A DNA stretch of 51,830 nucleotides from Roseibacillus sp. (GTDB taxonomy: Bacteria; Verrucomicrobiota; Verrucomicrobiia; Verrucomicrobiales; Akkermansiaceae): positions 57,119-108,948 of the forward strand of contig NZAC01000014.1 of assembly GCA_002686085.1 (NCBI GenBank). The letters run 5' to 3'. This document shows, piece by piece, positions 11,733 through 47,141 of the stretch (within the stretch, counting starts at the first letter, position 1; each line of letters opens with the position of its first letter). A model generated the notes under the pieces. That model worked only from the letters and a program-made list of their open reading frames with translations, did no database searches and was not told the origin of the DNA. The position numbers were made by a program, and so were the translations under genes.

Positions 11733-11813
11733 GCGGAAACGGATTGACTGCCTCCAGCTGTGCTGCGGGAGGAAGGGCCCCGAAACTCATATGCTAAATC
11801 TTCCCATTTTTTC

Positions 11814-14800
11814 ATGAGCCGAATTCCTACCTCAGTTCTTTGTTGTGTTCTTACGGCGGCTGCCTTTCTTGTCGGTGAAGCAGCAGCTGACAGCATTGGT
11901 ATCAATTTTAACAGCAACCGTGATGCTGCTGTTGCGGAGATTGGGTCATCTGAGTCCGCGGGTCTTCCTGCCATTGCACAAGTCAATTGGAACAATACTA
12001 ATGGAGGGTCGTCAGCTACGGACGGAGCCAGCGGTAGTACGGCGGATATTTTGAGCCCCTCGGCGGGATTGCTGGTTGATGACAGTGGTAATCCAGTGGC
12101 AGTCACCGTGAGTTGGTCATCTAATGGAACGTGGAATACCAATAACGGGAGCTCTAATGGAAACGCCAAGCTGATGAACGGGTATATCGATGCGATTAAC
12201 GCCGGAGGCCTTGCGCGCATTGACTTGGCGGGTATTCCCTATGCTCAATACGATGTCTACGTGTATTTCGGGAGTGATGGTAACGGCAGAACTGGATCTG
12301 TTTTCAGTCCAACTGCCGATCAGGAGTTTTTCTTCACGACGTTTTCAAGTCGAGGTGGTTTCGATGGCGGGGATTACCTGCTTACCGAGGCTACTGCCGG
12401 GAATCCCGAAGCGAATTACTGTGTGTTTCGTGATCAGACTTCGGGAACGTTTTCGGTGCAATTGAATCGTGGTTCCAGCAACTCAGGGTTTCATGGAATT
12501 CAAATCGTGGGAACTTCAGTGCCAGGTGCACCAGCGGTAGTAACCAATCCAGCCACTCTGGTCTCCTCTGAGTCTGCACGGCTTAATGGTGCAGTCACCG
12601 ACGTGGGGTCAGGAGCTCCGGCAGTAACAGTGTATTATGGAGAAAATGATGGCCTGACAAATGCTGAAGACTGGGATTCTGCGGTGAGTCTGCAGGGCCC
12701 ACAGGCAGGTGCTTTTTTTGCTGATGTCGCCGGTCTACTTCCGGGGCAAACCTACTATTACCGTTCTTATGCGGCAAATACATCCGGGTCCGGTTGGTCA
12801 GCCGTCAGCGAGAGCTTTCAGACAGGAGTGAGCCCGCCTGCTATTGTGAACCTGGCCCCAAGTGAAATTATGACTGGTAGTGCCCGTGTTGGTGCCGAGG
12901 TGACGGCCACCGGTGGCGGAATTCCCTTGGTGACCCTTTTTTACGGGGTGAGCGATGGGGGCAGCTCTGAGGCAAGCTGGAGCAATTCGGTCCAACTGGG
13001 AGTTCAGGAAGGATCAGCGCGGACTGTGCTGACTGGATTGCAGGCTGGAGTGACCTACTATTACCGGGCGAGGGCAACGAATGAGGGGGGTGTCAGCTGG
13101 GCGCCTGTCACCGAGAGCTTGATGACCGAGCAGCCCGCTCCCCCGGTGGTCGTCAATCGTAACGCAGACAGTGTGCGAGGTGCTTCGGCAAATTTACGGG
13201 GCGAAGTAACGGATACTGGATTCGATGCGCCTGTAATAACTTTTTATTATGGAAGAAGCGATGGTGGAGCCGAGCTGGAAGGCTGGGAGCGGTCCGTGAG
13301 CATCGGTGAGAGAACAGGGCGATTTTCCCTTTTTGTGTCAGATCTCGAACCGCTCACCACCTATTATTTCCGGTGTCGCGCAAGCAACGTGGCCGGTTCG
13401 GCATGGGCCACGTCCAGCGAATCGTTCACCACGACAGAACTGCTCAGCAGCTCCGTGGTGATCAATGAAATTCATTACGACCATGAACCCAAAACAGAGC
13501 GGGGAGAATTCCTCGAGCTTTTCAACCCGGGGGACTCACCTGTGCTTCTTACGGGGTGGCAGCTCAATGGTGCTGTCGATTTTGATTTCCCTGAAGGTAC
13601 ATCGATAGAGGCCAATGGTTTTCTTGTCGTTGCCGAGGACCCGGAGGCAATGCAATCGATTTTTGGTTTCGATAATGCTCTGGGTCCGTATTCGGGAAGG
13701 CTGAGTAACGATGGAGAACGCATCGAGCTTGAGGATGAGAATGGATCACTGGTGGATGAGGTATCCTACGAGATCGGGTTTCCCTGGCCGACGGCTTCCC
13801 GGGGAGGAGGTTCCTCGATGGAATTGATCAACGAGGACCTTGATAACCAGCTCGGTAGCTCGTGGCGATCTTCGGGGAGCGTGATATCCGGAGGACCTCA
13901 GGTGACCTACGTCTCTGCAGGAGAAACATGGAGTTATCGGAGGGGAACCAGCGAGGCCTCCGCACCCCCGGACGCATGGCGGATGCAGGATTTCGTCGAG
14001 GATGCGACTTGGACAACTGGACGGGCAGGATTCGGTTACGGGGATGGCGACGACGCTACTGTCCTTAGCGACATGCGAGGCAGTTATTCCAGTGTCTATC
14101 TGCGAAAGGATTTCAACGTCACGGGAGAGATTCCAAGGCAGCTCTCCATACGTGTCTACCATGATGACGGGGCGATCGTCTGGATTAATGGTGATGAGGT
14201 GGCCAGGGTGAGCGTGGACCAGGGAGATTTGACATACCGTGGGATCCGGGCATCAGACCCTCAGGGCGGATCTGACGGTAGCGCGATAAACAACCACGAG
14301 GCGGCATGGACCGAAGTGATTTACCTCGGTGCCCGGAATACCCTCAGGACGGGGACCAACACGGTAACGGTCCAAGGATTTAATGGAACCCTTTCCAGCA
14401 GCGACTTCTCACTTGATTGCGAGCTGAGAACTCCTCCGCCCGGGAACCCGGCAGTTGGTGTTCCAACCCCGGGACAGGCTAACACGGTCTACGCCTCCAA
14501 CGCCCCGCCAAACATTCGGCAGGTTAATCATTCGCCGTTACAGCCTTCGGCTGCGGAGGAAGTACTGGTCACCGCAAAGGTTTCAGATCCAGATGGTGTG
14601 CGAAGGGTCACCCTGACCTACCAGCTGGTTGAACCGGGGGCCTACGTGCACAAGGAGGATTCCGCATACGAGGATGGATGGATTTCTCTCGAAATGGTGG
14701 ATGACGGTAGTGGTGGCGACATGGCCTCCGGCGACTCCATCTTCTCTGTTTCCATTCCCTCCGCCGTGCAGGTTCATCGCCGCCTTGTCCGCTACAGGAT

Positions 14801-17462
14801 CACGGTTGAGGATGAGCTTGGGATTTCTCAGCGCACACCTTTCGAGGACGATGAATCTCCCAATTTCGCCTATTTCTGTTACGATGGTGTCCCTGACTGG
14901 TCAGGGTCGAAAAGGCCGGGAGTGCTTCGCAATGAGAACTACTCTTCAGAAGCTCTGGAAAGTATTGCGGTGTATCATCTGATTACCAAGGAGTCTGATG
15001 TGATCCAGTGCCAGTGGACAGGTCCGACGGACGGGCAATATCGCTATCTCGGAACATGGGTTTATGAGGGAAAGGTCTACGATCACATGCGTTACCGCAT
15101 TCGGGGTCGTGCCTCTACCCGGCAGGTGGGAAAGAACAAGTGGAAGTTCAATTTCAACAGGGCTCGCCCCTTTGAGGCACGGGATAACTATGGACGTAAA
15201 TACGATGTCAGCTGGGATAAAATCAATGGACTGCCTGCAACCAACCCGTGGTGGAGGAATAATGCTTCCACCGACGGTACGGTTTTCTGTGAATCCCTCA
15301 GTTTTCGATTGTATCAGTTGGCAGGAGGCCTCGCCAGCAACACTCACTTCTACCACTTTCGCATCATCGATCAGGAGGAAGAGGCCCCTTCTGACCAGTA
15401 TGATGGAGATTTCTGGGGCCTCTATACAGCGATCGAGCAACCGGACATGAAGTTTCTTGAGGCCCGCAACATGCCCGAAGGAAATCTCTACAACGCCCAT
15501 GGTGGATCCGGATCAACAAAGAGGGCACAGGCCTCCACCCTGCCGGCTGATAAGTCTGACCTCTTTGACTTCCAGAGTTTGCACAACAGTGGAACCTCCC
15601 GGGCACAATGGGAGGAGACGCTGGAATTTGACGATTACTTCGCATTTAACGCAATTAACCTTGCGATCAACAACTCCGATATGCGCCCGCAGGAAAATGT
15701 GAACTACTATCATAATTCGGAAACCGGAAAATGGCATATCATCCCGTGGGATCTCGATCTGACGTTTGAGGATGCTCCTCACCTGGGGCGTGGGGACACT
15801 TCGGACTGGGAGAGAATTTACCATTGCCTGCAGTATCCCGATACCAACCAGGCCTATCAGAACCGAGTGCGTGAAATTCTTGACCTGCTTCTCGACAATG
15901 GGCAATCCAGCCATGCCGTAGATGAGTTCGCAGGGTTCCTGACTCGCGGAGGACGAAATAATATTGTGGAGGCTGGACAGGCCGTCTGGGATTACCATCC
16001 CCGGAAGAGCAAGAAGGGTATATGGTATGCAAACTTTAACTCCTCTCTGCTCACCAGCCGGACCTTTGCGGGGTTGACTGAATATACGAGAGATTTCTTA
16101 ACCGTGGGAGGCTACGGAAGGAGCAACCTGGCTGCCAAGTCTGCTGACAACGCGATTCCGAACAAGCCGGTTATTACGTATGTGGGTCCGTCCGGATTTC
16201 GTTCTGACGGACTCGTGTTTCGTTCGTCTTCCTTCAATGACCCGCAGGGTCGCGGGACTTTTGGATCAATGGAGTGGCGGCTTGGAGAGGTTCTTAATCC
16301 CGATTCCCCCAATTATACCGAGGGGGATCGATACGTTTATGAGATCGAGACCTTTTATCAGAGCCCGCGGCTCGAAACCTTTGAGCGAGATTTCACCTTT
16401 CCAGCGACGACCGCAAGGCCCGGCCGGACCTACCGTGCCCGTGTTCGTCATCTTGACAGTTCGGGCCGCGCCAGCAACTGGTCGGACCCGATTGAATTCA
16501 CGGCTGCTACCCCGCTCCTGTCGCCCTGGATCGAAAATCTGATGGTAACTGAGGTGCACTACAACCCTCTCCGGGCCAGTGCATCTGAAATTGCAGCTGG
16601 CTTTGTTACCTCCGATTTTGAATTCATCGAGATATACAATCGAAACGCCTCCGAGACCCTGGACCTCAGGGACATCCGGTTTACCAAGGGAATTGATTTT
16701 GACTTCCGGGACAGCAGTGTCACCAGTTTGGGTCCTCGCGAATTTGCGCTCGTAGTTCGAAACACGGAAGCCTTCACATCGCGTTACGGGGAAGGGTTGC
16801 CTGTGGCGGGTAGTTATGGCCCGGACAATCTCTCCAACGGGGGTGAGAACGTGAAACTTTCCTTTGGAGCTGGCTCCGCCATCAGGGAGTTTCAGTACTT
16901 GGATGAGGATCCCTGGCCTTCCGATGCGGATGGAAGTGGGTTTTCACTCGTTCTCGTGGCTCCAGACAGTTCCCCTGACCATGCTGATCCTGCTAGCTGG
17001 ACCGTCAGTTTGAACGTGGGAGGGAGTCCCGGGGCAGCGGAGCCGGGTGCAACTTTCGCCGAGTGGAAGAATGATGTTTTCACAACGGGGGAACTAGCTG
17101 ATCCTGATATCTCTGGAGATGCCGTCGACCTCGATTCGGATGGAATGAGTAACCTCCTGGAATATGCCCTCGCCTCCGATCCAAAGGTTCCCGATCCAGG
17201 GAATCTTCCCGATCTCATCATGGTGCCGGATGGCTCCGTGGTTCATCCTGCGCTCCGCTACCGTCGGCGTCCTACGAGCGGTGACCTCGCATACAGTATC
17301 GAGTCCTCGAGAGATTTGATCAACTGGCTTCCGGAAGAAAGCACGGTGCTGGTCGATTCGAGCAACAATGGCGATGGTTCCGTGACAGACACGGTAAGGG
17401 TTGAATCTTCGTCGCAAGCCCTTGACCGTTTTTTCCTCCGCCTCAGGGTTGAAATAAGGTGA
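11814..17462 (+). CDS. Giant secreted CotH-kinase-like / lamin-tail-domain protein with fibronectin-like repeats
   Basis: The 1882-residue protein has a signal peptide (1-26) and then a module of about 207 residues shared with two neighbouring genes (27-233). Three fibronectin-III-like repeats follow (about 236-542; each with a YYG..DG start and TYYYR end). Next come a lamin-tail-like domain opening VVINEIHYDHEP (543-690), a beta-sandwich region with VYHDDGAIVWINGDEVA (695-880), and a CotH-like region (1055-1430) with RGRAST and IIPWDLDLTFE. A fibronectin-like part, a second lamin-tail domain (1572-1738) and a Ca-binding-like DLDSDGMSN stretch complete it. CotH homologues in spores are protein kinases; in PVC bacteria such proteins are exported and of unknown role. 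The frame opens at GTG 11760, but the ATG at 11814 gives the signal peptide. The next gene starts 71 bases after the stop. Confidence 0.85.
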   Translation: MSRIPTSVLCCVLTAAAFLVGEAAADSIGINFNSNRDAAVAEIGSSESAGLPAIAQVNWNNTNGGSSATDGASGSTADILSPSAGLLVDDSGNPVAVTVSWSSNGTWNTNNGSSNGNAKLMNGYIDAINAGGLARIDLAGIPYAQYDVYVYFGSDGNGRTGSVFSPTADQEFFFTTFSSRGGFDGGDYLLTEATAGNPEANYCVFRDQTSGTFSVQLNRGSSNSGFHGIQIVGTSVPGAPAVVTNPATLVSSESARLNGAVTDVGSGAPAVTVYYGENDGLTNAEDWDSAVSLQGPQAGAFFADVAGLLPGQTYYYRSYAANTSGSGWSAVSESFQTGVSPPAIVNLAPSEIMTGSARVGAEVTATGGGIPLVTLFYGVSDGGSSEASWSNSVQLGVQEGSARTVLTGLQAGVTYYYRARATNEGGVSWAPVTESLMTEQPAPPVVVNRNADSVRGASANLRGEVTDTGFDAPVITFYYGRSDGGAELEGWERSVSIGERTGRFSLFVSDLEPLTTYYFRCRASNVAGSAWATSSESFTTTELLSSSVVINEIHYDHEPKTERGEFLELFNPGDSPVLLTGWQLNGAVDFDFPEGTSIEANGFLVVAEDPEAMQSIFGFDNALGPYSGRLSNDGERIELEDENGSLVDEVSYEIGFPWPTASRGGGSSMELINEDLDNQLGSSWRSSGSVISGGPQVTYVSAGETWSYRRGTSEASAPPDAWRMQDFVEDATWTTGRAGFGYGDGDDATVLSDMRGSYSSVYLRKDFNVTGEIPRQLSIRVYHDDGAIVWINGDEVARVSVDQGDLTYRGIRASDPQGGSDGSAINNHEAAWTEVIYLGARNTLRTGTNTVTVQGFNGTLSSSDFSLDCELRTPPPGNPAVGVPTPGQANTVYASNAPPNIRQVNHSPLQPSAAEEVLVTAKVSDPDGVRRVTLTYQLVEPGAYVHKEDSAYEDGWISLEMVDDGSGGDMASGDSIFSVSIPSAVQVHRRLVRYRITVEDELGISQRTPFEDDESPNFAYFCYDGVPDWSGSKRPGVLRNENYSSEALESIAVYHLITKESDVIQCQWTGPTDGQYRYLGTWVYEGKVYDHMRYRIRGRASTRQVGKNKWKFNFNRARPFEARDNYGRKYDVSWDKINGLPATNPWWRNNASTDGTVFCESLSFRLYQLAGGLASNTHFYHFRIIDQEEEAPSDQYDGDFWGLYTAIEQPDMKFLEARNMPEGNLYNAHGGSGSTKRAQASTLPADKSDLFDFQSLHNSGTSRAQWEETLEFDDYFAFNAINLAINNSDMRPQENVNYYHNSETGKWHIIPWDLDLTFEDAPHLGRGDTSDWERIYHCLQYPDTNQAYQNRVREILDLLLDNGQSSHAVDEFAGFLTRGGRNNIVEAGQAVWDYHPRKSKKGIWYANFNSSLLTSRTFAGLTEYTRDFLTVGGYGRSNLAAKSADNAIPNKPVITYVGPSGFRSDGLVFRSSSFNDPQGRGTFGSMEWRLGEVLNPDSPNYTEGDRYVYEIETFYQSPRLETFERDFTFPATTARPGRTYRARVRHLDSSGRASNWSDPIEFTAATPLLSPWIENLMVTEVHYNPLRASASEIAAGFVTSDFEFIEIYNRNASETLDLRDIRFTKGIDFDFRDSSVTSLGPREFALVVRNTEAFTSRYGEGLPVAGSYGPDNLSNGGENVKLSFGAGSAIREFQYLDEDPWPSDADGSGFSLVLVAPDSSPDHADPASWTVSLNVGGSPGAAEPGATFAEWKNDVFTTGELADPDISGDAVDLDSDGMSNLLEYALASDPKVPDPGNLPDLIMVPDGSVVHPALRYRRRPTSGDLAYSIESSRDLINWLPEESTVLVDSSNNGDGSVTDTVRVESSSQALDRFFLRLRVEIR
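11892..12512 (+). repeat. Shared SIGINF module, copy 1
   Basis: First of five copies of an unnamed domain of about 200 residues. Landmarks are SIGINFNSNRD at the start, NGTWNTNNG, MNGYIDAINAGG, YDVYVYFGSDGNGRTG and, at the end, NRGSSNSGFHGIQIVG. It directly follows the signal peptide of the CotH protein. Confidence 0.75.
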
Positions 17463-17533
17463 GTGAAGGCGCCGCTTGGGCAGGAGCGGGTTGCAAATTT
17501 TTTTCGTGCTGTCAAGCTGGTCCAACCCCAGTC

Positions 17534-20500
17534 ATGAATCGTTGCCTTTCAATTCCGGCGTTTGTCCTGATTGTCATCATTTCTGCTTCCTGTGGTGACA
17601 AAGAGAATAGGGGAGATGGAAGCCAGCCGATGCGGCAGACGAGAGAAGCTCAAGGGGCACCGGCTTCTTCCAAACCCGAGGGAATAGTCAAGAGCAGGCC
17701 CCTTGTTGCGCGCTCAGAGCAGAAAGGAGCGAGCCTTTTCCAGCGACTTAGTCCGGACGAGACAGGCGTCACCTTCCAGAATAGAATCGACGTCTCACAT
17801 CCACTCAAACGCCTTTACCATTCTGGGTTCGTGTGCGGAGGGGTCGCGATCGGCGATGTGACCGGAGATGGATTGCCGGATCTTTTCTTTGCGAGTGGAC
17901 CCGGAAAAAACAGGCTGTATCGGCAAGAACGAGATTCCTTTAAATTCGAGGATATTACACGGAATGCCGGAGTCGAGGGGGAAGATGCATGGGCGACGGG
18001 GGCGGCTCTTGCTGATGTGGACAACGACGGAGACCTCGACCTTTACGTGTGTAATTATGACTCAGCGAATGCTCTTTACCTGAACGATGGCTCCGGAAAA
18101 TTCAGGGAAGCTGCGGAAGAGTTTGGGCTCGCGCAAGTGGATGCATGTCTCGTGCCGAGCTTCTGTGACTATGATCGCGATGGGGACTTGGACGTGTTCC
18201 TGCTTACCAACCGCTATTACCGGAAGGGAGGACGTCCCGTTGATCCGCCTTTCGAAGAGGTTGCGGGTGGCAGGCCAAGGGTTAAACCAGAATTCAGAAA
18301 ATATTACGGATTGAAGGAAAAGGGTCCGGGTTCATACGGCATGGATGAGGTAGGAAGGCCAGATTTGCTTCTGCGAAATGACGGTGGGAAATTCACGGAC
18401 GTCAGCAACGAATCCGGGATCAGCGTGGATGGTCACGGGTTGTCAGCAACATGGTGGGATTACGACCATGATGGCCTGATGGATCTTTATGTATGCAACG
18501 ATTTTGCGGACCCTGATAATCTGTTCCGAAATAATGGTGACGGAACTTTTACCGATACGATTACCTCGGTAGTAAATTACACGCCGTGGTTTTCCATGGG
18601 AGCTGATGCAGGGGATATTAACAACGACGGTCAGCTGGATTTCGTGGCTCTCGATATGGCTGCAACCACACACTATAAATCCAAGATGGCCATGGGTGAG
18701 ATGGGAGCGATGAGATACGTGATTGAGAAAGCCATGCCCCGTCAGGTCATGAGGAATTGCCTCTACGTAAGTGTTGGAATGGGCCGCTATATTGAGTGTG
18801 CTAGCCTCTCGGGAATATCGAGTTCGGACTGGTCCTGGGCGGCCAAGTTGGCTGATTTTGACAATGACGGAAAGGTGGACCTTTTCATCTCGAACGGAAT
18901 GGCGCGGGATTTCAACAATTCGGACATCACCTTTACCCCAGCCGATCAGATCGGGAAAAGTGAATGGGATCACTACGAGAATACTCCCGCGAAGCCGGAG
19001 CAGAACCTTTCTTTCAGGAACAAGGGTGATTACAAATTTGAGGACACGAGCAAAGAGTGGGGCCTTGATCACGTGGGGATGAGCTATGGTAGCGCCTATG
19101 GAGATCTTGATGGAGATGGAGACCTCGACCTCGTGACAGTGAATCTGGAGGAACCGGTAAGTATTTATCGGAACGGTTCCCAGAAGGGAAATTGCATCAC
19201 CGTATCCCTGAGGGGAGTCCGCTCAAACAGTTCCGGGATCGGAGCACTGGTGACGGTTGAAGCGGAAGATGTTAAGCACGTCCGCCAGCTCGTTCCCATG
19301 AGCGGGTATCTCTCCAGCAACGAGCCGATTATTCATTTTGGGCTGGGCGAGGCAGAACGAGTGGATCGGATCAACGTGCGCTGGCCGGATGGCAAGGAGC
19401 AGGAATACCGCGGACTCGAGGTTAATCATCACCACGAGATTACGGAAGCAGGCGAAGAGCTGCCAGTCTATAAGCGCCGCGAGGTAGAACCGCTCTTTCT
19501 CCCGGAAGAGCGGCTCAGGGGAATAGTACACAAGGAGAAGGTTTTCGAGGACTTCTCGCGGCAACCGCTTCTTCCAAACAAGCTGTCGCAGCTCGGTCCA
19601 GGTGTTGCCGTGGCGGATGTCAATGGTGATGGTAGTGAGGATTTTTACATCGCTACGGCGCGTGGCCAGTCTGGTGCGATCTTCCTGAATGACGGGAAGG
19701 GAAATTTTCGACTGGGGACCACCTCTCCCTTTGATAGGGATGAGGATACGGAGGGAATGGGAGTTCTGTTCTTCGATGCGGACTCTGATGGAGATCAGGA
19801 TCTTTATGTCGCAAGTGGCAGCTATGAATATGATCCCGGGAGCCTGCTCACCCGTGACCGGCTCTACCTCAACGACGGGTCGGGGAATTTCGTGAAAGCC
19901 CCTCCGGGGAGCCTGCCGGAATCGCGGGACAACAGTAGTTGTGTGGTGGCGGCCGATTTCGATTGTGATGGAGATCTTGATCTATTTGTTGGAGGGAGGG
20001 TTATTTCGGGTGCTTATCCCGTTGCGGCAACGAGTCATCTGCTCGTGAATGAATCCAGTGACGGAGAAGTCCGGTTCGTGAAGGCCCCGGCCGCTGTCGC
20101 TCCGGGGTTGGAACAGACAGGAATGGTGACAGGGGCCCTGTGGTCTGACGCTGATGGAGACGGTTGGGTTGACCTTCTTCTCTCCCAGGAGTGGGGTCCA
20201 GTGAAGCTCTTTCGCAATGAGAGCGGCAAGCTGGTCGACGTAACCAGCCTGAGTGGTCTGCAGAAGTATACAGGATGGTGGAACAGTATAGCTGGTGGAG
20301 ATATCGACCATGACGGGGACATCGACTATGTGGTTGGTAACGCAGGCCTCAATACGAAGTACCATGCGGATGCCGGCCATCCAGTAATGCTGTACTATGG
20401 GGAGTATGGAGATGAGGGCAAAAAACGTCTTGTAGAGGCTAAGTATGAGGATGACATCATAGTGCCGGCTCGTGGGAAGAGTTGCTCCACCAAGGCCATG

Positions 20501-21250
20501 CCGCATCTTGGCAAGAAGTTCGGGACCTTCCATCAGTTTGCCAGTGCGACTCTCCCCCAGATATACACCGAGGAGTGCCTTACGGAATCCCTCAAGCTTG
20601 AAGCGACCACGTTAGAATCGGGAGTATTCACTAATGACGGAAAAGGCAAATTCTCCTTTCAGCCCTTACCTAACATCGCCCAGTCGTCTTCGATCTTCGG
20701 AGTATCACTGGTCGACGTGAACTCTGATGGAAGGTTGGACCTGTATGCGGTCCAGAATTTTTCTAATCCTCAGTTTGAGACCCCTCCATTCCGAGGCGGA
20801 CTGAGCGTGCTTTTGCTGGGCGATGGAGAAGGAGGATTCGACGCGGTTCAGCATTCTGAAAGTGGATTGGTCGTGCCTGGTGACGGGCGAGGCCTGGCTT
20901 GCACGGATTTCAACCGTGATGGGCGCCCGGATTTCCTGATCGGCATTAATGACGGTGAATTGAGGGCCTTTACAAATCGTCCGGGCCTCGCTGGGCGGTC
21001 CTTGCGGCTGGAGGGTAGGGTAGGAAATTCCCACGCTGCCGGTGCCCGAATCATCCTTTTCGCTGGGACTGGTCAACGAGTGACGGAAGTCTATCAGGGG
21101 AGTGGATATCTTTCCCAGTCGACACCGGTGATATTTCTGGATCCTGATGTTACCCGTGTGGAGGTAACTTGGCCAGGACCCGGAAAGAGAACCTCAGCGC
21201 TTGATCTTGACGAAGGGAGCAGAGAAATAGTGCTCACAATGCCTCAGTAG
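17534..21250 (+). CDS. FG-GAP/VCBS repeat protein with two ASPIC/UnbV domains, lipoprotein-like
   Basis: The 1238-residue protein is probably exported: hydrophobic segment then ISASCGDKENRG, with the Cys as a possible lipid anchor. It holds about 14 Ca-binding DxDxDGxxD motifs of FG-GAP/VCBS type (for example DVDNDGDLDLYV, DFDNDGKVDLFI, DADSDGDQDLYV). They are arranged as two halves of about seven, each closed by an ASPIC/UnbV-type domain: near residues 550-640 with SGYLSSNEP, and near 1155-1235 with SGYLSQSTP. It is thus a beta-propeller protein doubled in tandem, resembling the CRTAC1 family. The function is unknown; binding of cell-surface or extracellular partners is the usual guess. The frame overlaps the upstream stop from a GTG at 17459, but ATG 17534 gives the signal. 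Confidence 0.85.
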   Translation: MNRCLSIPAFVLIVIISASCGDKENRGDGSQPMRQTREAQGAPASSKPEGIVKSRPLVARSEQKGASLFQRLSPDETGVTFQNRIDVSHPLKRLYHSGFVCGGVAIGDVTGDGLPDLFFASGPGKNRLYRQERDSFKFEDITRNAGVEGEDAWATGAALADVDNDGDLDLYVCNYDSANALYLNDGSGKFREAAEEFGLAQVDACLVPSFCDYDRDGDLDVFLLTNRYYRKGGRPVDPPFEEVAGGRPRVKPEFRKYYGLKEKGPGSYGMDEVGRPDLLLRNDGGKFTDVSNESGISVDGHGLSATWWDYDHDGLMDLYVCNDFADPDNLFRNNGDGTFTDTITSVVNYTPWFSMGADAGDINNDGQLDFVALDMAATTHYKSKMAMGEMGAMRYVIEKAMPRQVMRNCLYVSVGMGRYIECASLSGISSSDWSWAAKLADFDNDGKVDLFISNGMARDFNNSDITFTPADQIGKSEWDHYENTPAKPEQNLSFRNKGDYKFEDTSKEWGLDHVGMSYGSAYGDLDGDGDLDLVTVNLEEPVSIYRNGSQKGNCITVSLRGVRSNSSGIGALVTVEAEDVKHVRQLVPMSGYLSSNEPIIHFGLGEAERVDRINVRWPDGKEQEYRGLEVNHHHEITEAGEELPVYKRREVEPLFLPEERLRGIVHKEKVFEDFSRQPLLPNKLSQLGPGVAVADVNGDGSEDFYIATARGQSGAIFLNDGKGNFRLGTTSPFDRDEDTEGMGVLFFDADSDGDQDLYVASGSYEYDPGSLLTRDRLYLNDGSGNFVKAPPGSLPESRDNSSCVVAADFDCDGDLDLFVGGRVISGAYPVAATSHLLVNESSDGEVRFVKAPAAVAPGLEQTGMVTGALWSDADGDGWVDLLLSQEWGPVKLFRNESGKLVDVTSLSGLQKYTGWWNSIAGGDIDHDGDIDYVVGNAGLNTKYHADAGHPVMLYYGEYGDEGKKRLVEAKYEDDIIVPARGKSCSTKAMPHLGKKFGTFHQFASATLPQIYTEECLTESLKLEATTLESGVFTNDGKGKFSFQPLPNIAQSSSIFGVSLVDVNSDGRLDLYAVQNFSNPQFETPPFRGGLSVLLLGDGEGGFDAVQHSESGLVVPGDGRGLACTDFNRDGRPDFLIGINDGELRAFTNRPGLAGRSLRLEGRVGNSHAAGARIILFAGTGQRVTEVYQGSGYLSQSTPVIFLDPDVTRVEVTWPGPGKRTSALDLDEGSREIVLTMPQ

Positions 21251-37895: not shown

Positions 37896-40865
37896 TTAGT
37901 TGATCTGGAGAAAACTCTCACTGAGAAGAACTGCGCGGATGAGAGACCTCAAACGATGGTTTTCGTCAGCTGTGTTTTCCACGATCTCCTCAATAGTAAG
38001 AAAGTCCGCCGGATTCAGCTCCCGGGACGTTGCATAGCGCATAAGATGGGCCGTAAAGGCCCGAGCAAAACGGCGATCCTCTTTAGCCAGTGATTCCTTG
38101 AAGCGAACCGCGCCATCAAAGGGATACTTTTTCATCAAGGTGCCGCTGGCGTCAACGGCTCGACCATTTGGATACTTATCTCTCCACCTGCCGATGATGT
38201 CATAGTTTTCAAGAGCGAAACCGAGGGGGTCAAGGCGTGAGTGACAACCGGCGCAGTCTGGATTCTCACGATGCTTGGCAAACTTCTCGCGAATCGTGAG
38301 ATTCTTGTCGGCAGCATCCTCGTTCAGAGGAGGAACATTATTGGGTGGTGGTGGGGGAGGGTCATTGAAAATTACCTCGATGACCCAGGCTCCCCGGGCA
38401 ATTGGGTGGGTGCGTTTAGGGCCTGAGGTCATGCTAAGCATTGCCGCATTGGTTATCACCCCTCCGTAACGAGGGTCATCAGCCTCCCGACGGGAGAAGG
38501 ATCTTGAACGTAGTTTACTACGAATATCATCCTCAAATATTTTCTTGGCGTCCTGCCGCGCCCGTCCCGGGTCGGTATTGGGAGGAACATTGTCGAATGA
38601 GCTTTGCGCCTGTTTGATTTCCTGAACCAGGCTATTGCGCCTGTCTCTCTGGGAGGGAGTGAGGGCCTCCGCCAGTTCCGACTCGGTGACATAAAGTCCA
38701 CCGGCAGAACCTGCGATCTCCTCAGCATTGAGAGCCCGGTTGTAGAGTCGCGCTCGTGCCAGACTGACATCAAGGTATCGGCCGCCTCCGGCAGGAAGAT
38801 GGCGCACTCCAAAAATGATGGAGCTCTTGTGCTTGGGAAAGGTGGCGAGGCTGGTGCGGAAGGGCTTGCCGTAGGGCATGCCATTTCGATAGAGGGTCAC
38901 CGAACCATCGGCTCCATAGACCATAGCGAGGTGAATCTTCTGGTCTGGTTTCATCTCGGGCGTAGAATCCGGGAAGTCCTTTGTGCGGGCGAAGCGGTTG
39001 CTGCCTGAGATCCAATGTCGTTTCTTCCGCTCCCCGAGCACGATGGTATCAAAAAAATCGCCAGGGCCCTGAACCCCCATGAATCCCCCTCCGTCCTGAT
39101 CAATATTGTGCACCATGCCCCAAACCTCGAGGGTCCTCTCTTTCAGGTCAAATGAGAGGGAAGGGCTTTGTAAGTAGGAGTTTTTTAGGACGACCATGCC
39201 TTCGCTGAAGCTGATTTTGCCGTGGCTTTTCAGGTGTAGCGATCCCACTGAATCTCGAAGGTCATTGTTGAACTCCCATGCTGCTATCGGATCAAGGTTG
39301 ACGGGTTTTCCTCCCTTGCGGCGGGCCTTCAGAAGGCGTGCTTTGACTGGGTCTACCAAAGTCTTGAGTTCCGCTTCCTTTGATTGGATTGTGGTTCTGA
39401 AGGCTGCGCGCTTTTCGTCGTTGGATTTGTTGCGAGCTACAATGGCATTAGTGTCAAAGCGGGGTGGTTTGAGATCGGAGGTATACCAAGCCTGGAGGAA
39501 TTCACTCTGATAGGAAAACCGGGGCGCAATGAGCTCAATGACAGGCCGGTCCTCAAGGAACATGGCGTCGAAAAGGAGAAGCGGTTCGAGGATCATCTGA
39601 ACGCTGGCCGGGCTGGATTTATCGACGTTAAAAAGGCGTGCCAGTTTTGGATCGGGAGTAGCGCCAAGAAGGTTTTCGAGTTGCATCCATTGCGAAGGGA
39701 AAGCGTCAAGAAAGCGCTCGATCCGGGAATCAGACATCATGCGGTTACAGGCGTTCTTGAACACGTCGAGATTGGCAAGTTCCCCGCTCTCCGCTAGTTC
39801 AAGAAGCTCGAGATCTGGACCACTGTTCCAGAGGAAGAAGGAAAGATTGCTTGCGACGACGAACAGGTCCTTCCCTGCGCTGGTTGATCCATATCGGAGA
39901 AGAAACCGGGGAGACGAGAGGACAGCGGAGGCTGCTCGTTTCATCGCGTCGGTGAAGGATAGTCCCTGTTCGATCTTTCCGAGGGTGTAGTTGGTGTAAC
40001 GCTCGAGGGTATCTACTTCGATAGCGCTTCGGAAAGCGAGGAACAGGAAGCTCTTCAACCGTTTTTGGACCTCTTCCCGCATGTCTCCTGCCTTGGGTGC
40101 ACGGAAGAAATCGTTCCATATGCCCACTGTTTGCTCATTAAAGTCCGGGCTTTCAATGATTGAGACGCTGAGACGCAGGAAGGAGTCGAGAAGGAGGGGC
40201 GACAAGGAGAGCTGATTCGCCTGATTGTCGTATCCATGGGCAGCCCGGAGGTCTTTGGGGAAGGCTTTGACCTCACGCATTCCTGCGGCAGGAGAGAGTG
40301 AGTGACAGGCAACTTCGACCTCGTTGGGCATCTTTCTGGTGTCCGGCTTGAGATAGTCGCTGTGCCGGGTCATGAGCTTCTCTGGCAGCGCAAAGAGATC
40401 CCGGTTGAGCAGGAAGAGATCACGAACAGCATTATTGTACTGGAATCTGTTGAGTCTCCTGATCTGAACATGTCGGTCTTGCGGGTTTTCTGCTGTGGCT
40501 TCGCGCAGCATCGATTTTAAGCTGGCGACAAGTTCCTCGCGTTTGGCGTCTGGAATCTCGGGTTCACTCTCGGGAGGCATATCGTAGGAATCTACAGCCT
40601 CGATCAGCTCCTTTAGCAGTTTGGGATTGGCCCGGAGGTGATTGAAGGTAGTGACCTTCTTGAGGTTAACCTTTCCCTTGGTCTTTTCGCCTCCGTGGCA
40701 CTTGATACAGTGCTCTGCGAAGAGCGGTTTGATTAGAGAGTCAAACTGAGCTCCACCGTCTGATTTTGGAGCGGCGGCTCTACTGGCCGGGTGCAACAGA
40801 AGCGTTGCGGCCAGCAATATCAAAGCAAAAGCCCTCACAGGCATAGACGCGCACGGTGTGGCCAT
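37896..40865 (-). CDS. DUF1592-type planctomycete cytochrome c protein with inserted LamG domain
   Basis: From ATG 40865 the product is 989 residues, with a signal peptide (about 1-32) and an N-terminal c-type haem segment, C53-C56-H57 in EHCIKCHGG. DUF1587 and DUF1595-like parts follow, then the DUF1592 region. The last is split by a LamG/concanavalin-like domain (about 525-722, starting IAAWEFNNDLRDSVG). DUF1588 has a second CxxCH at 871-875 (CAGCHSRLDPLGF), and a C-terminal DUF1585 closes the chain. This domain order is typical of PVC-specific exported proteins of unknown function. It starts 26 bases after the DUF1552 gene. The inserted lectin-like fold suggests a glycan-facing role, which is inference. 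Confidence 0.88.
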   Translation of the reverse strand: MATPCASMPVRAFALILLAATLLLHPASRAAAPKSDGGAQFDSLIKPLFAEHCIKCHGGEKTKGKVNLKKVTTFNHLRANPKLLKELIEAVDSYDMPPESEPEIPDAKREELVASLKSMLREATAENPQDRHVQIRRLNRFQYNNAVRDLFLLNRDLFALPEKLMTRHSDYLKPDTRKMPNEVEVACHSLSPAAGMREVKAFPKDLRAAHGYDNQANQLSLSPLLLDSFLRLSVSIIESPDFNEQTVGIWNDFFRAPKAGDMREEVQKRLKSFLFLAFRSAIEVDTLERYTNYTLGKIEQGLSFTDAMKRAASAVLSSPRFLLRYGSTSAGKDLFVVASNLSFFLWNSGPDLELLELAESGELANLDVFKNACNRMMSDSRIERFLDAFPSQWMQLENLLGATPDPKLARLFNVDKSSPASVQMILEPLLLFDAMFLEDRPVIELIAPRFSYQSEFLQAWYTSDLKPPRFDTNAIVARNKSNDEKRAAFRTTIQSKEAELKTLVDPVKARLLKARRKGGKPVNLDPIAAWEFNNDLRDSVGSLHLKSHGKISFSEGMVVLKNSYLQSPSLSFDLKERTLEVWGMVHNIDQDGGGFMGVQGPGDFFDTIVLGERKKRHWISGSNRFARTKDFPDSTPEMKPDQKIHLAMVYGADGSVTLYRNGMPYGKPFRTSLATFPKHKSSIIFGVRHLPAGGGRYLDVSLARARLYNRALNAEEIAGSAGGLYVTESELAEALTPSQRDRRNSLVQEIKQAQSSFDNVPPNTDPGRARQDAKKIFEDDIRSKLRSRSFSRREADDPRYGGVITNAAMLSMTSGPKRTHPIARGAWVIEVIFNDPPPPPPNNVPPLNEDAADKNLTIREKFAKHRENPDCAGCHSRLDPLGFALENYDIIGRWRDKYPNGRAVDASGTLMKKYPFDGAVRFKESLAKEDRRFARAFTAHLMRYATSRELNPADFLTIEEIVENTADENHRLRSLIRAVLLSESFLQIN

Positions 40866-40891
40866 AGTAAGGAGTTCTTGTGGTGCTCCCT

Positions 40892-42253
40892 TCAGGTCCA
40901 CAGGTCCGAGACCACCCCGGAGCTGTCTGCAAAGGAATTGATTTCTGCTCCCATCAACTGAGCCATGGTCAGCCACATGTTGGAGTTGAGGGTGCCACTC
41001 TTGCACTTGAGGAATCTTCCCTGCTTGATCTGGCCCTGTGCACCGCCGGCGAGAATAAACGGGAGATCATAAAACTGGTGAGTTGCGCCATCGCCAAGAG
41101 CGGCCCCGTAGGAGACGAGGGAGTTGTCGAGCATGGTGCTTCCGTCCGCCTCGCGGATCTCCTTCATGCGCCTCAACATGTAGGCATATTGCTCAAGGTG
41201 AAAGATATCGATCTTCTGAACAGCCTTCCATCCGTCTCCCTTCTGGTTATGGGTCATGTTGTGGTGTTGCACCGGTTTATCAAACACGCCCTCATACATG
41301 AGGGTCGCATCCCAGCGCTCTGGCCCGATCATGAAGGTGCTGATATTCGTCATGCCCATCTGGAAGGCTAGGAGCATCAGGTCGGTTTGCAGGCGAATGT
41401 ATTCGCCGCGGGGCAGGATTTCATCTTTCGGAATCCGGATATCCGCCTTTGCGATTCGTTCCTTCTGTTTGGCAATGCGGATTTCGACATTGCGGATCAT
41501 CTCCATGAACTCGCCCAGAGTCTCCCGGTCATCGGTGCCGAGTTTCTTCGAAAGGCTTTTGGCATCGGCAAGTAACAGAGAGGAGACATCACTGAGGTGG
41601 GACTGAAAATTATCGGCCTTGAAGAGGCGCTCGTAGAGCTTCTGAGGATCCTTGATGGAAGGAGCGATCTTGTCCGGGCCATACCACGAGATGTTATCGA
41701 AGTAGATGGGTTCCTTGGGGGCTCGAAAGCCATTGCAGCTTATCTCGAGGGTCTTGAACACGGAGGAACCTCCGACATGGTCGCCGATGACCTGATCCAG
41801 ACTGCGACCGTTGGGATAACGCCATCCTTTCTCGGTGGCCTGCTCAGGGGAGACGCTGGTGAGATAGCAGGAGGCTCCCTGCGCGTGAACGTCCTGCCCA
41901 TTCTTGAACGTCCTCTCCATACCGGTGACGAGTGTGATATCGTTCGCGTGCTCGCGCAGGGGCTGCATTGAAGAGCTGAACTCCAAAGGGTAGACCCCTG
42001 TTTTGTTTTCAACACGCTTCTGTTGCTTGGTCTTGTCCGCATTGAAGCCGCCCACGAATCCGGGAAGCTGTGCCTGCTCTTCACCAGGGAAAAAGCCGCG
42101 CCGGTTGATCCCGTTGGGAACGTAGAACATGACCATCTTCTTATCCGGCTTTTTCCTCTCCTTTAAGGACTTGGCGGAAGCCAGTGAAGGCATGAAGGGC
42201 AAAGTCAGGAGGGCTCCCTGAGTTCGTAGAAATTTCCTTCTCGAAAGGTTCAT
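40892..42253 (-). CDS. DUF1552 domain protein, Tat-exported
   Basis: The 453-residue protein begins MNLSRRKFLRTQGALLTL, a twin-arginine signal, and continues with DUF1552: MVMFYVPNGINRRGFFP, a DVHAQGASCYLT motif, RSLDQVIGDH, and in the second half AFQMGMTNISTFMIGPE and HHNMTHNQKGD. DUF1552 proteins resemble DUF1501 in size and in their habit of pairing with cytochrome-like DUF1592 proteins; their reaction is unknown. The frame is open far upstream (to 42520), but the Tat motif fixes the start at ATG 42253. It is the first gene of the pair and diverges from the sulfatase gene across 102 bases. Confidence 0.9.
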   Translation of the reverse strand: MNLSRRKFLRTQGALLTLPFMPSLASAKSLKERKKPDKKMVMFYVPNGINRRGFFPGEEQAQLPGFVGGFNADKTKQQKRVENKTGVYPLEFSSSMQPLREHANDITLVTGMERTFKNGQDVHAQGASCYLTSVSPEQATEKGWRYPNGRSLDQVIGDHVGGSSVFKTLEISCNGFRAPKEPIYFDNISWYGPDKIAPSIKDPQKLYERLFKADNFQSHLSDVSSLLLADAKSLSKKLGTDDRETLGEFMEMIRNVEIRIAKQKERIAKADIRIPKDEILPRGEYIRLQTDLMLLAFQMGMTNISTFMIGPERWDATLMYEGVFDKPVQHHNMTHNQKGDGWKAVQKIDIFHLEQYAYMLRRMKEIREADGSTMLDNSLVSYGAALGDGATHQFYDLPFILAGGAQGQIKQGRFLKCKSGTLNSNMWLTMAQLMGAEINSFADSSGVVSDLWT

Positions 42254-42355
42254 TGAACCTATGGTTTCATACCATCCGCGCTCGAAAAGCCTTATTGTCC
42301 ACGTTTTCGAATGACAAGGGCCCCCGAGCACCTGAAATCCAGCTTCTCTCTCCCC

Positions 42356-44113
42356 ATGAAGGTCGTCATATCTCTTTATGCCGTAGTGCTTTTCGCTATC
42401 CCCGTTCTTGAGGGGAAGCCACTGCGGCCCAATATTCTGATTATCTTCACCGACGATCAGGGTTACGCGGACCTGGCTTGTTACGGTAACAAAAAAAATA
42501 AAACTCCTCGTCTTGATCAACTAGCGAAGGAGGGAACGCGGTTTACTTCGTTTTACTCTCAAACTGTCTGTGGCCCCTCGCGATCGGCTCTTCTCACAGG
42601 ACGGCAGCCTCTCAGGAGTGGCGGCTGGGGAATGCCTGCATCAGAGATCACGTGGGCCGAGTTGGCTCGTAAGGCGGGTTACCAGACTGCTTGTATCGGA
42701 AAATGGGATGTTTCCAACCGGAAGCCGATTGTAGACCGCATGCCAAACGCCCAAGGGTTTGATTATTACTTCGGTGCTCTCGGAGCGAACGATAATGGCT
42801 CAGTTCAGTTCCACGAGAACAACAGGGCGGCGGGCAGCAGCCGAGACATGGGAGGGCTGGTGCGCCTCTACACCGAGAAGTCTATCGATTTTCTCAAAAA
42901 CAAGCGAGATTCTGCTAAGCCCTTCATGCTGTATCTTGCCCATACCATGATGCACACAATCATCGATGCGTCCCCCTCTTTCAGAGGGAAGTCGGAGGGG
43001 GGGCTTTATGGAGACGTGGTGGAGGAATTTGATCACGAAACAGGAAGGCTACTCGATGTTCTGGATGACCTGAATCTCTCCGAGACTACGCTCGTGATAT
43101 ACACCAGTGATAATGGGCCATGGAATCAGGACAAATATACCAAGCGCAAGAGGGGACATCCGGAGGGCTCTGTTTTCTGGGGAGAGGCTGGTCCACTTCG
43201 GAATGGCAAAGGGTCTCCCTATGAGGCGGGCTACCGGCTCCCATGTATTGTGCGCTGGCCTGGGAAGGTGCCAGCTAATCGCACCAGCGACGCCATATTT
43301 GCCAGCATAGATTTTCTTCCTACGTTCGCGAGCCTCTGTGGCTTTGAGGCTCCGGATGACCGCCAGATTGATGGTATTGATCAGACTGAGTTGCTTCTCG
43401 GGAAGACAGAGAAGGGGCGTGACTACTTTTATTTCAACCGTGCTGGGGTCAGGAAGGGTAAGTGGAAATATCTGCGGCCGAATGCGCATTTTCATGGTTA
43501 CGCTGTTGAGGATGGACGGAAGAAGATAGATGAGCTTTATGATCTCGAGGAGGACCTTGGTGAGCGCAACAATCTCGCTGACAAGCACCCGGATCTCGTA
43601 TTGGAGCTAAAGGAGCTTACAAAGCAGCTGGAATCCAAGAGGGTCACGGTGGATGAACCGACTCAGTTTCAGATACGTCTCAAAGACAGAGGCCCTCAGA
43701 GAGAGAGTGCGAGTATCAAGGTCAATGCTGGGCAAGAGGCGGTGATTTTCGAAGTCAGCGACCAATCAGGTATTGGTAGTGGTTCGATTCATCTTCGCAA
43801 TGGACGGTGGCCTGAGAAAGTTGTCCTACGCGTTCTTCTTTCCGGGTTAGAAGGTTTCGAGATTAAGGTGGGGGGTAAAACGTTTTCGGGCGCTTATCAC
43901 GGAGAAGGTGCTCCGCGGCGTGACAATTGCCTGCCGGTCAGGATGCTTGATACAGGGGGAAGACCACTCAGTGGGCGGTATTTGATCGAGTCAGATAAAA
44001 GTGGAGTCACAAATCGCAGAGAAGGATACTACGAAATAGAGGTTCCCCAAGCGCTTCTGAACTCAGAGGCCCGGGCAATAGAGTTGTCCTGGGTAGATTT
44101 TTATCGTCGATAG
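42356..44113 (+). CDS. Sulfatase (CxPSR type), secreted
   Basis: The 585-residue protein has a signal peptide (about 1-21) and an alkaline-phosphatase-fold sulfatase domain. Metal-binding Asp33-Asp34 lie in IFTDDQGYADL. The formylglycine site is Cys72 in VCGPSRSALLTGR, and IYTSDNGPW carries further ligands. Such enzymes remove sulfate esters, here probably from polysaccharide, after conversion of the Cys by a maturase not seen in the window. Beyond about residue 440 is an extra C-terminal beta-rich region of about 140 residues (from SASIKVNAGQ), not part of the minimal sulfatase and possibly binding substrate. ATG 42356 gives the signal peptide; ATG 42311 would add a polar N-terminus. Confidence 0.92.
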   Translation: MKVVISLYAVVLFAIPVLEGKPLRPNILIIFTDDQGYADLACYGNKKNKTPRLDQLAKEGTRFTSFYSQTVCGPSRSALLTGRQPLRSGGWGMPASEITWAELARKAGYQTACIGKWDVSNRKPIVDRMPNAQGFDYYFGALGANDNGSVQFHENNRAAGSSRDMGGLVRLYTEKSIDFLKNKRDSAKPFMLYLAHTMMHTIIDASPSFRGKSEGGLYGDVVEEFDHETGRLLDVLDDLNLSETTLVIYTSDNGPWNQDKYTKRKRGHPEGSVFWGEAGPLRNGKGSPYEAGYRLPCIVRWPGKVPANRTSDAIFASIDFLPTFASLCGFEAPDDRQIDGIDQTELLLGKTEKGRDYFYFNRAGVRKGKWKYLRPNAHFHGYAVEDGRKKIDELYDLEEDLGERNNLADKHPDLVLELKELTKQLESKRVTVDEPTQFQIRLKDRGPQRESASIKVNAGQEAVIFEVSDQSGIGSGSIHLRNGRWPEKVVLRVLLSGLEGFEIKVGGKTFSGAYHGEGAPRRDNCLPVRMLDTGGRPLSGRYLIESDKSGVTNRREGYYEIEVPQALLNSEARAIELSWVDFYRR

Positions 44114-44243
44114 GAAAATGACCGGAGTGTGGCGTTAGCCAGTCTTTTGGTCGAAAATTCAGGCTACAGGGGATGATGGTATTCGGAAATTGCGGAGCGG
44201 ATCCCTGTGTTGGATACTTGCGAACTGGAGTTCCTCAGGTCTG

Positions 44244-47141
44244 ATGCGCTACGCCATCTTTTCAGAGATTTACGGTAATCGTCAGGCATGGAATGCCATT
44301 GTAGACGATTTCACAAGCCTTGGGGTGGACATGCCAATCTGTCTCGGTGACGTGTCTGGCCATGGTGCGGGAACAGCAGAAATCCTGGAAGACCTGAGGT
44401 CTCGGACTGGCAATATCGTTCTGGGGGACTGCGATGCGGCGCTCGTCGGGTTATTAGGAGAGGCGCACCCGGATGAGGGAACAAACAATTGTATCAGGTG
44501 GACCCGTGAGCATCTTCATCAAGGCGCCTTGTCCTATCTGGCGGAGCGCCCACTTGCTCTTGAGACGGGGGGAATTCTTTTTGTCCATGGGGAGTGTGTG
44601 GAGCCTGGGCGCTATCGGGGAATTGGCAGTGAGTCAGCGGCGCGTGAAAACCTCGAAGCGACTACGCACCGGGTTACCTTCCTTGGGCATGCGCGGGAGC
44701 CGGGCATCTACCGGCAGCAAGCGAACGGGGTAATTGACAGCCTTCCCGCAGAAAACCGGGAGCTATCCAGCGACTGTCGATATCTGGTGAATGTAGGGTC
44801 GGTGGGAGAACCCGCCACGGTAGAGGATCCCGCGGCTTGCTATGTTATCTATGACAATGAGACACAGGAGCTCACTTTCCGACGCGTAGCGTTTGATGTT
44901 GCCGCCTACCGGGCGGACATACTCGACGCAGGCCTTTTCCTTCGGCCATGGTGCACCGATGGTGACCAGAGAGATACTACCGGGACGCCGCTGGCCGAGT
45001 CCCTGAGCCCCGAGCATCGGGAGGAAGGTGCGGTAGTGGCTTTGGCCTCGGTAGAAACGGTGGTGGAGCCCTTGTTCCAACCGTCGGTGAACCCTCCCGC
45101 TCGTCGTAGCCGGGGCGTGCTGGCATGGATGGCGTTGGTCTCTGTAGTGGTATTGGCCGCAGGCGTAGGAGTTTTTGTATTCAAGGAAATCAGGGAAAGA
45201 CAGGAGATGCAGTTCCCTCTGGGAGGCAGTGAGACGGCCTCTGCTGGCAGGGCAATGCCGCAATCGGATCCCGAAGGGAATCTCCAGCCACTGGTTCTGC
45301 CGCAAACAGGCATTGAGGTAGCAAAGCAACCAGTTGAATCCGGTGATCTCCCGGACCTCGATTCAGAGCCGGTGATTGATGGTCCAGGTCGTTCTCCAGA
45401 AGGCGTTGCAGAGAATGACCCCTCCGATACTCCGGTCCCTCCTGCCTCGGAGCTAACCGATGAACCAAAGTCGACTGATCTGCCCGAGCCTGCTGGTGAG
45501 TCAGAGCCAGAGGATTCGCTGGAGCAGGGAGTTGCGGAGACGGCTCTACCGGAGGGAAAGGCGCCCATTCCTCCGGAGCCTGCCGATGTAGCATCTCTTC
45601 GACCTCCCACTCGGAGCCTCATTTACTATGCGCCGTTTGATGAGGATTCCACCGAGTTCCGAATCCGTGATCTTTCCGGGGGAGAGCGTGATTTGGATGC
45701 CACCAGTGGGAGCCCGGGGATCCTTGGGAGGATAGGGATGGCCTGTCGGCTCGTGGAGGAAAATGGTAGCGAAGCCATGCGCTCACCGGTGAAGCCTCTT
45801 TCCGAGGTTGAGGATGTCACTATCGCTTTCTGGCTGAAACGGCCCGATACAGCCCTGCAGACTCCTCCCGAGTCGGGTGCTCCTGCGGGAATCAAGAAAC
45901 TGACCGATGCTACTCTTCTCTCTTTTGACAGTGTTGGCGAAGTGCGGGTCGTCGATGACAGGATCGAGGCTGTGGTAGGAGAGGGCGCTCCAGCTACTCT
46001 TGGGTTTCCACAGGATTTGCTCTGGCATCATATCCTCGTCGAGCGAGTGAATGGAGAAACATCGATTTGGCTGGATCACAGGGTGCAATCCAAGGTCGTC
46101 CCAAGTGTTGCTGGGCCTTCTGCAGCCGAGGAGGCAGCGGTTCAGGTGGGCAGTAAGAATGCGGACTTTTGTATCGATGAGGCTGCTATATGGGCGCGCG
46201 GTTTTACCGCTGAGGAGCGTTGTGTGTTGTATCGTCTTGGACGATTTGACACTCCTATCATGGCGCCTCCGAGTTCGATCGCCTATTGGGGTTTCGACAA
46301 GAGTAAGCTGGGGAAAGGAGTTTTCGGAGACTACATCGGAACCCGCCCGTTGGGATCGTATGCCCGGTGGAAGCCTGCCAAGCCCCTTGCCCCCGATCCC
46401 GTGCCCATGACGACAAAGAGAAATGTGGTTGCGGCACAGGTATCCCACCTTGCTGAAAGCAAGGAAGGGGCGGGAAGCTTTGAGATGAAAGGAGACACCC
46501 CTTTTACCTACGAGGGCTGGTTTAAACCGGGACGGCTGACGGCCGGAACTCTGGGGGGGACGGTTCCCACGACAAATGACAAGGGGGAGGCTGGCTGGCG
46601 ACTCGCCCTCAGCCCGGGTAAGAGCGGAAAAGGGTTTCTCGCCTTCATCTACGATACAGGATCAGAGAAAATGCAGGCAGTTGCCGAGAATGTACCCATT
46701 TACGATGGGCTTCCACACCACCTTGCTGCGGTCTGGAATCCCCGGTCTTCGGAGACCCACGGGAGTATGGGCATTTTTCTGGACAACAAGCTCGTTGCAT
46801 CCGCGCTGCTACCCCTCGAAAAATTGAGGCCAGCGAGTGGGCAGCACTTTCGAATAGCGGTTGGTGGCTCAGCAGTGGTCGTTGATGAGCTGCGCTTTAC
46901 GACCGGATCTCTCAGACCCAGTGAATTTCTGACCAAAGGGGAGGCCCGGCCGGCTCCGGAGCTTCCGATTGCCGGGAACAATGAAAGACGGATAGCGCCA
47001 GCTTCGAGGCCGGGTGAAACGCCATTTCAACGGGCAGCTCGGGAATTAGAGGAGCGAAAGGCCGAGCAGGCCGCAGAGCGAGAGCGCAAGAGAGCGGAGG
47101 ATGACCGGCGGCGACGTGAGGGTTTTGGGGTCCGGGACTGA
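44244..47141 (+). CDS. Membrane protein: degenerate metallophosphoesterase domain, one TM helix, two LamG-like domains
   Basis: The 965-residue protein opens with a YfcE-like calcineurin phosphoesterase fold (1-240). Several metal ligands are changed: the usual DxH is SEIYG (E8, Y10), the GNxD motif is GDCD (60-63), and GHTH is GHAR. GDVSG and VHGE remain, so catalysis is doubtful. One transmembrane helix follows (about 291-313, ALVSVVVLAAGVGVFVF), then an acidic Pro-rich linker (315-455). Two LamG/concanavalin-like domains (about 457-670 and 677-900) come next, and the chain ends in a charged helix (ERERKRAEDDRRRREG). The likely topology is N-terminus in the cytoplasm and LamG part outside. 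It lies between two sulfatase genes; ATG 44244 has the family start MRYAIFS. Confidence 0.8.
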   Translation: MRYAIFSEIYGNRQAWNAIVDDFTSLGVDMPICLGDVSGHGAGTAEILEDLRSRTGNIVLGDCDAALVGLLGEAHPDEGTNNCIRWTREHLHQGALSYLAERPLALETGGILFVHGECVEPGRYRGIGSESAARENLEATTHRVTFLGHAREPGIYRQQANGVIDSLPAENRELSSDCRYLVNVGSVGEPATVEDPAACYVIYDNETQELTFRRVAFDVAAYRADILDAGLFLRPWCTDGDQRDTTGTPLAESLSPEHREEGAVVALASVETVVEPLFQPSVNPPARRSRGVLAWMALVSVVVLAAGVGVFVFKEIRERQEMQFPLGGSETASAGRAMPQSDPEGNLQPLVLPQTGIEVAKQPVESGDLPDLDSEPVIDGPGRSPEGVAENDPSDTPVPPASELTDEPKSTDLPEPAGESEPEDSLEQGVAETALPEGKAPIPPEPADVASLRPPTRSLIYYAPFDEDSTEFRIRDLSGGERDLDATSGSPGILGRIGMACRLVEENGSEAMRSPVKPLSEVEDVTIAFWLKRPDTALQTPPESGAPAGIKKLTDATLLSFDSVGEVRVVDDRIEAVVGEGAPATLGFPQDLLWHHILVERVNGETSIWLDHRVQSKVVPSVAGPSAAEEAAVQVGSKNADFCIDEAAIWARGFTAEERCVLYRLGRFDTPIMAPPSSIAYWGFDKSKLGKGVFGDYIGTRPLGSYARWKPAKPLAPDPVPMTTKRNVVAAQVSHLAESKEGAGSFEMKGDTPFTYEGWFKPGRLTAGTLGGTVPTTNDKGEAGWRLALSPGKSGKGFLAFIYDTGSEKMQAVAENVPIYDGLPHHLAAVWNPRSSETHGSMGIFLDNKLVASALLPLEKLRPASGQHFRIAVGGSAVVVDELRFTTGSLRPSEFLTKGEARPAPELPIAGNNERRIAPASRPGETPFQRAARELEERKAEQAAERERKRAEDDRRRREGFGVRD

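Follow-up and report, generated by a model that had tools for sequence, protein, structure and literature searches.

A membrane-anchored, catalytically degenerate metallophosphoesterase with a LamG-type ectodomain is maintained by selection in Roseibacillus

The stretch of DNA analysed here, referred to as the window (51,830 nucleotides of contig NZAC01000014.1, assembly GCA_002686085.1, Roseibacillus sp.), contains between two sulfatase genes a complete gene for a 965-residue protein in which a metallophosphoesterase (MPE) fold is followed by a transmembrane (TM) helix and two LamG-type domains. The gene extends from an ATG at position 44244 to the last stop base at position 47141. Upstream of this ATG the reading frame stays open to a TTG at 44190; the orthologues share the start methionine, and the relatives begin with MRYAIFS. 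The features of the locus are as follows.

42311..44113, + strand: sulfatase, upstream and co-directional (Pfam; synteny kept in the genus)
44244..47141, + strand: membrane-anchored pseudo-metallophosphoesterase, complete gene
44244..44951, + strand: MPE-fold domain, catalytically degenerate, residues 1-236
44265..44273, + strand: former D-x-H metal motif, now E8-I9-Y10 (alignment with relatives)
44349..44351, + strand: bridging ligand D36 (LGD), retained (alignment with relatives)
44427..44432, + strand: D62-C63 in place of the GNHD ligand and catalytic His (alignment with relatives)
44586..44588, + strand: H115, retained (alignment with relatives)
44688..44696, + strand: former GHTH motif, with H149 conserved and R in place of H151 (alignment with relatives)
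44952..45113, + strand: juxtamembrane linker, residues 237-290, fast evolving (dN/dS 0.52)
45114..45191, + strand: single hydrophobic transmembrane helix, residues ~291-316 (AlphaFold model)
45192..45593, + strand: acidic Pro-rich linker, residues 317-450, modelled as disordered (pLDDT about 33)
45594..46259, + strand: LamG/ConA-type jelly roll 1, residues ~451-672
46260..46943, + strand: LamG/ConA-type jelly roll 2, residues ~673-900
46992..47138, + strand: charged C-terminal helix, residues 917-965, also found in one receptor kinase encoded by this genome
47148..48686, - strand: sulfatase, downstream and convergent (Pfam; synteny kept in the genus)

The original prediction of an MPE domain joined through a TM helix and an acidic Pro-rich linker to two LamG domains is borne out by Pfam, by the relatives and by a whole-protein AlphaFold model (mean pLDDT of 67, with about 80-90 in most of the MPE domain), in which the charged helix at the chain end spans ~33 residues. 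The second LamG domain is matched by PF13385 over residues 751-884 (E=5.9e-9, 36.7 bits against a gathering score of 27.6) and in fold by domain 4 of AbnA (Z=18.4). The first has no Pfam match in the window protein and is seen as a jelly roll in the full-length model, its isolated model being poor (pLDDT 47); two relatives, L046 and L048, carry two LamG stretches each. Judged from these folds, the LamG domains may bind glycan. A kinship of the ectodomain with clostridial neurotoxin binding domains was considered and rejected, as the two have only the common jelly-roll fold, with 7-14% identity among the matches listed.

By fold and sequence the N-terminal domain is a homologue in the calcineurin-like metallophosphoesterase superfamily (PF12850/PF00149). 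In phmmer searches it matches 3rqz with E=3.8e-19 and, as second sequence match, SapH (3qfm) with 1.1e-5, and its model superimposes on 3rqz (Z=21.4 over 222 residues), 1nnw (19.4) and 3qfm (17.5). Fold, length, the LGD and GH motifs and a C-terminal NxGSVGxP motif are those of the superfamily. The Pfam MPE models stay below threshold for the window protein and reach it in 10/10 relatives scanned, two of them degenerate orthologues. Hence the fold proposed earlier is confirmed but its label "YfcE-like" is not: the equivalog model of the YfcE phosphodiesterase (PRK09453) scores 15 bits, below the NCBIfam cut-off of 117, and 3rqz and SapH are the nearest solved structures.

What sets the window protein apart from the superfamily, besides its TM helix and ectodomain, is the replacement of five of the eight catalytic positions. 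Intact relatives carry D8, H10, D36, N62, H63, H115, H149 and H151 (DHDNHHHH); the window protein reads EYDDCHHR (D8>E, H10>Y, N62>D, H63>C, H151>R) and retains D36, H115 and H149. The substitutions read directly from the sequence before (DxH to ExY, GNxD to GDCD, GHTH to GHAR) are therefore real, and the ligand set of a dinuclear site (D-x-H, D, N-H, H, H-x-H) is incomplete. Following general knowledge of the superfamily, we take residues 8, 10, 36 and 151 to form the metal-1 site, 36, 62, 115 and 149 the metal-2 site, and H63 to be the catalytic His. Since all metal-1 residues except D36 are altered, this site is lost; the candidate metal-2 residues are D, D, H and H, which in the window protein alone could hold one weak metal site. 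Throughout the window's clade H10, N62 and H151 are gone, and D36, H115 and H149 are the only octet residues in common. The degenerate orthologues have D, Y or F at position 62, C, F or H at 63 (C or F in 12 of the 13 clade members) and R, Q, G, I, S, A or F at 151. A search of the clade for a rebuilt metal site yielded N77D, C118, E170 and N205 as the only ligand-type residues gained, and nothing that consistently replaces H10, N62 or H151. The MPE domain of the window protein thus probably lacks phosphohydrolase activity. A different change occurs in soluble (non-TM) MPE relatives with DHDDEHHH, in which Asp-Glu takes the place of Asn-His and the other metal ligands are intact, perhaps another altered catalytic site.

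The original prediction knew of no described protein of this layout. The layout is not an isolated one. Across 98 related genomes the MPE-TM-ectodomain arrangement is seen in several families of the order, a recurrence which argues against chance, and a wider genome scan added Kiritimatiellae, Lentisphaerae and other Verrucomicrobiota with versions of ~500 residues. The window protein fits this broad verrucomicrobial family, with its N-terminal MPE domain, a single TM helix at ~285-320 and a variable ectodomain; the ectodomains found across the family comprise the carbohydrate-related types LamG, PA14, F5/8C, SASA and weak CBM35, besides DUF2341. Among 77 distinct TM-anchored proteins 65 have the intact DHDNHHHH octet. 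The remaining 12 are all orthologues of the window gene, plus one copy split at a contig end, so that ligand loss is confined to the window's clade, i.e. one genus of Roseibacillus-type MAGs (13 genomes). In distant members of the family all metal ligands are invariant (22/22). Live receptors with LamG, PA14 or F5/8C ectodomains (L005, L048, L050, L062, L107) share the whole layout and the TM position with the window protein but differ in their intact octet; L048 resembles it in ectodomain and charged tail as well. One such live paralogue is encoded in the window's own genome (L005:7257-10226; 989 aa, MPE domain 45% identical), as is a soluble MPE of 240 aa (L007). Rather than protein phosphatases, the live members could be hydrolases of nucleotides or diesters, SapH being the closest characterised fold. 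In the literature search we found no described MPE-TM-lectin family.

In a tree of the MPE domains the degenerate proteins form one clade (99/96) and the live paralogues of the genus another (94/98), with the sampled soluble MPEs outside both. One genome, G009, encodes a degenerate copy (L046) beside the intact L048, whose ectodomain is of the same kind (40% over residues 385-962) and whose charged tail resembles that of the window protein. This co-existence suggests that duplication within the family of live MPE receptors preceded ligand loss. For six close orthologues we obtained dN/dS values of 0.062 for the MPE domain, 0.063 for LamG2, 0.106 for LamG1 and 0.37-0.52 for the linkers; the MPE domain of the live paralogue gives 0.047. 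The dead domain is therefore maintained by selection and functional, a conserved pseudoenzyme which combines lost catalytic residues with purifying selection. Together with the clade-wide loss of H10, N62 and H151 without consistent replacement, this persisting selection supports the non-hydrolytic role that had been suggested.

The relation of the domains to the membrane can be read from one relative. In L056 (G077; L056:6563-10666) a single chain of 1367 aa comprises a live MPE domain, a protein (Ser/Thr) kinase (297-550), a TM helix and two LamG domains, and its ectodomain groups with that of the window protein (100/100). As a kinase needs ATP, its insertion between MPE domain and helix makes it very likely that the MPE domain is cytoplasmic and the LamG domains lie outside, in line with the predicted topology of an enzyme fold inside and lectin-like folds outside. 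The fusion was encountered once; a second was not found among the matches listed for the family of G077 (75 genomes).

A second link to kinases comes from the C-terminal helix. The receptor kinases of the window's genome place their TM helix at ~300; their ectodomains are of Lectin_C, LamG, WD40 or FGE type, and one of these kinases (L178:3920-6952, TM at 312) ends in the charged helix of the window protein (L178:6830-6952 against 46992-47138; pattern GE[ST]P[FM]QRA.REL...). Such Hanks-type receptor Ser/Thr kinases resemble the window protein in having a cytoplasmic signalling domain, one TM helix at residue ~300 and a lectin-like ectodomain, but carry a kinase domain where the window protein has its dead phosphatase. 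In whole-genome searches (G000, G001, G005) the tail matched only the window-type protein and the receptor kinase, with E=1.1e-5 in G000 and E=2.7e-12 in G005 and with z values of 11.6-19.3 over composition-preserving shuffles. The tail-sharing kinase is present in 11 of the 13 genomes with the pseudophosphatase (missing in G002 and G009) and absent or only distantly similar in both genomes that lack it; as the Fisher-type p of 0.057 contains no correction for relatedness, this co-occurrence is suggestive only. Internal deletions affect the kinase in G003 and, probably, in G014 (L203, L204): in the G003 kinase most of the ectodomain is apparently lost and the last ~12 residues are kept, and the G014 match ends at the same place. 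The kinase tails of G005 and G008 are closer to the window's tail than to the kinase tail of G000.

Taken with the kinase links, the explanation that we favour, with confidence a little above even, is that of a receptor-type pseudophosphatase modulating glycan-responsive Ser/Thr-kinase signalling. On the outer side of the cytoplasmic membrane the LamG domains would bind glycan, and the single TM helix would relay their state inward, where the MPE-fold domain, presumably no longer able to hydrolyse phosphate after its ligand loss, would instead bind a phosphorylated target or partner. In this way it could compete with the live MPE receptor and a receptor Ser/Thr kinase or keep them in place. 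The protein probably originated by duplication among live MPE receptors, and it is kept by selection. A role as sensor or scaffold, as the original prediction had it, is plausible. A comparable case is provided by bacterial pseudokinases with a C-terminal TM helix, reviewed in PMC12599244, which are likewise inactive, selected and membrane-anchored signalling enzymes but have a kinase fold and belong to other lineages; for a bacterial pseudophosphatase of calcineurin-like fold in a receptor context our literature search returned no description. Within the genus there is a graded natural series, from the live L048 over the partly changed L046 to fully degenerate copies, some of which share a cell with a live paralogue, and the transition from signalling phosphatase to regulator is thus directly testable. 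The same applies to the question whether receptor phosphatases stand beside receptor kinases in verrucomicrobial glycan sensing. A complete circuit of this kind, in which the live MPE receptors are receptor-type protein phosphatases opposing the lectin receptor kinases and the window protein is a dedicated decoy or regulator paired with one kinase via the matching helix outside the membrane, is conceivable but doubtful.

Ranked behind the favoured explanation, and rather unlikely, is a nucleotide or alarmone sensor, derived from a family that hydrolyses a nucleotide like the Ap4A hydrolase SapH, whose dead copy only binds the ligand and then signals or gates the ectodomain. The sequence and fold matches to SapH and the clade-wide retention of H115 and H149 agree with such a sensor, but pocket residues beyond the ligands are changed (P44, N77, Y126, T150, R191), and both the L056 fusion and the shared helix favour protein phosphorylation.

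Unlikely as well, and placed after the nucleotide sensor, is a passive anchor or adhesin, with the MPE fold as an inert cytoplasmic plug and the LamG domains binding sulfated polysaccharide near secreted sulfatases. The conserved sulfatase synteny speaks for it, as do a LamG2 domain as constrained as the MPE domain and the sulfatase richness of marine Akkermansiaceae, in which sulfatases make up 1.5-4.1% of genes (PMC13174399). Yet a dN/dS of 0.06 over 236 residues is unexpected for an inert plug, and sulfatases are everywhere in the window's genome (111 matches, one per ~36 kb), which renders the neighbours weak evidence. The position between two sulfatase genes is confirmed but carries little weight. 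A functional link via sulfatases was also judged weak because live paralogues lie in other neighbourhoods (PDZ protein, PPDK-like).

We consider a residual or altered one-metal enzyme, in which a single ion bound by D36, D62, H115 and H149 supports low or different hydrolase activity, quite improbable. Four potential metal-2 ligands are indeed left, and the exchange of N for D at position 62 recurs in the soluble DHDDEHHH relatives; against this, the proton-donor His63 is replaced in nearly the whole clade, and in orthologues position 62 is Y or F and position 151 is G, I, S, A or F, so that the clade has no common one-metal site. A decaying pseudogene of a live receptor, to which the lost catalytic residues might point, is ruled out by MPE-domain dN/dS values of 0.06-0.12 and full-length frames in nearly all orthologues on intact contigs.

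Searches around the gene gave little else: scans for promoters and terminators yielded nothing above shuffles, plasmid searches gave no match for the DNA and, for the protein, only soluble homologues below 32% identity among the matches listed, PHROGs returned no match and PADLOC only a weak one. In eight orthologues the upstream sulfatase lies 130-134 bp ahead of the ATG, and beyond the downstream sulfatase most orthologues are followed by a DHDPS-like gene, a TIM-barrel isomerase and a Gfo/Idh-type oxidoreductase, conserved through the genus. The live paralogue of the window's genome is preceded by genes for a secreted PDZ-domain protein and a PPDK-N/EF-hand protein (L005:3643-7096), an arrangement conserved in much of the genus. 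Within the window, 37896-42520 comprises a minus-strand DUF1552 (HXXSHH) gene overlapped by the gene of a PSCyt/PSD-type cytochrome protein into which a LamG domain is inserted; in the genus, the PSCyt-type protein is seen again close to the orthologues of the window gene. At 11760-21250, two very long reading frames (1900 and 1263 aa) with a 4-base overlap encode a CotH/Lamin-tail/fn3 protein and an FG-GAP/ASPIC-UnbV protein.
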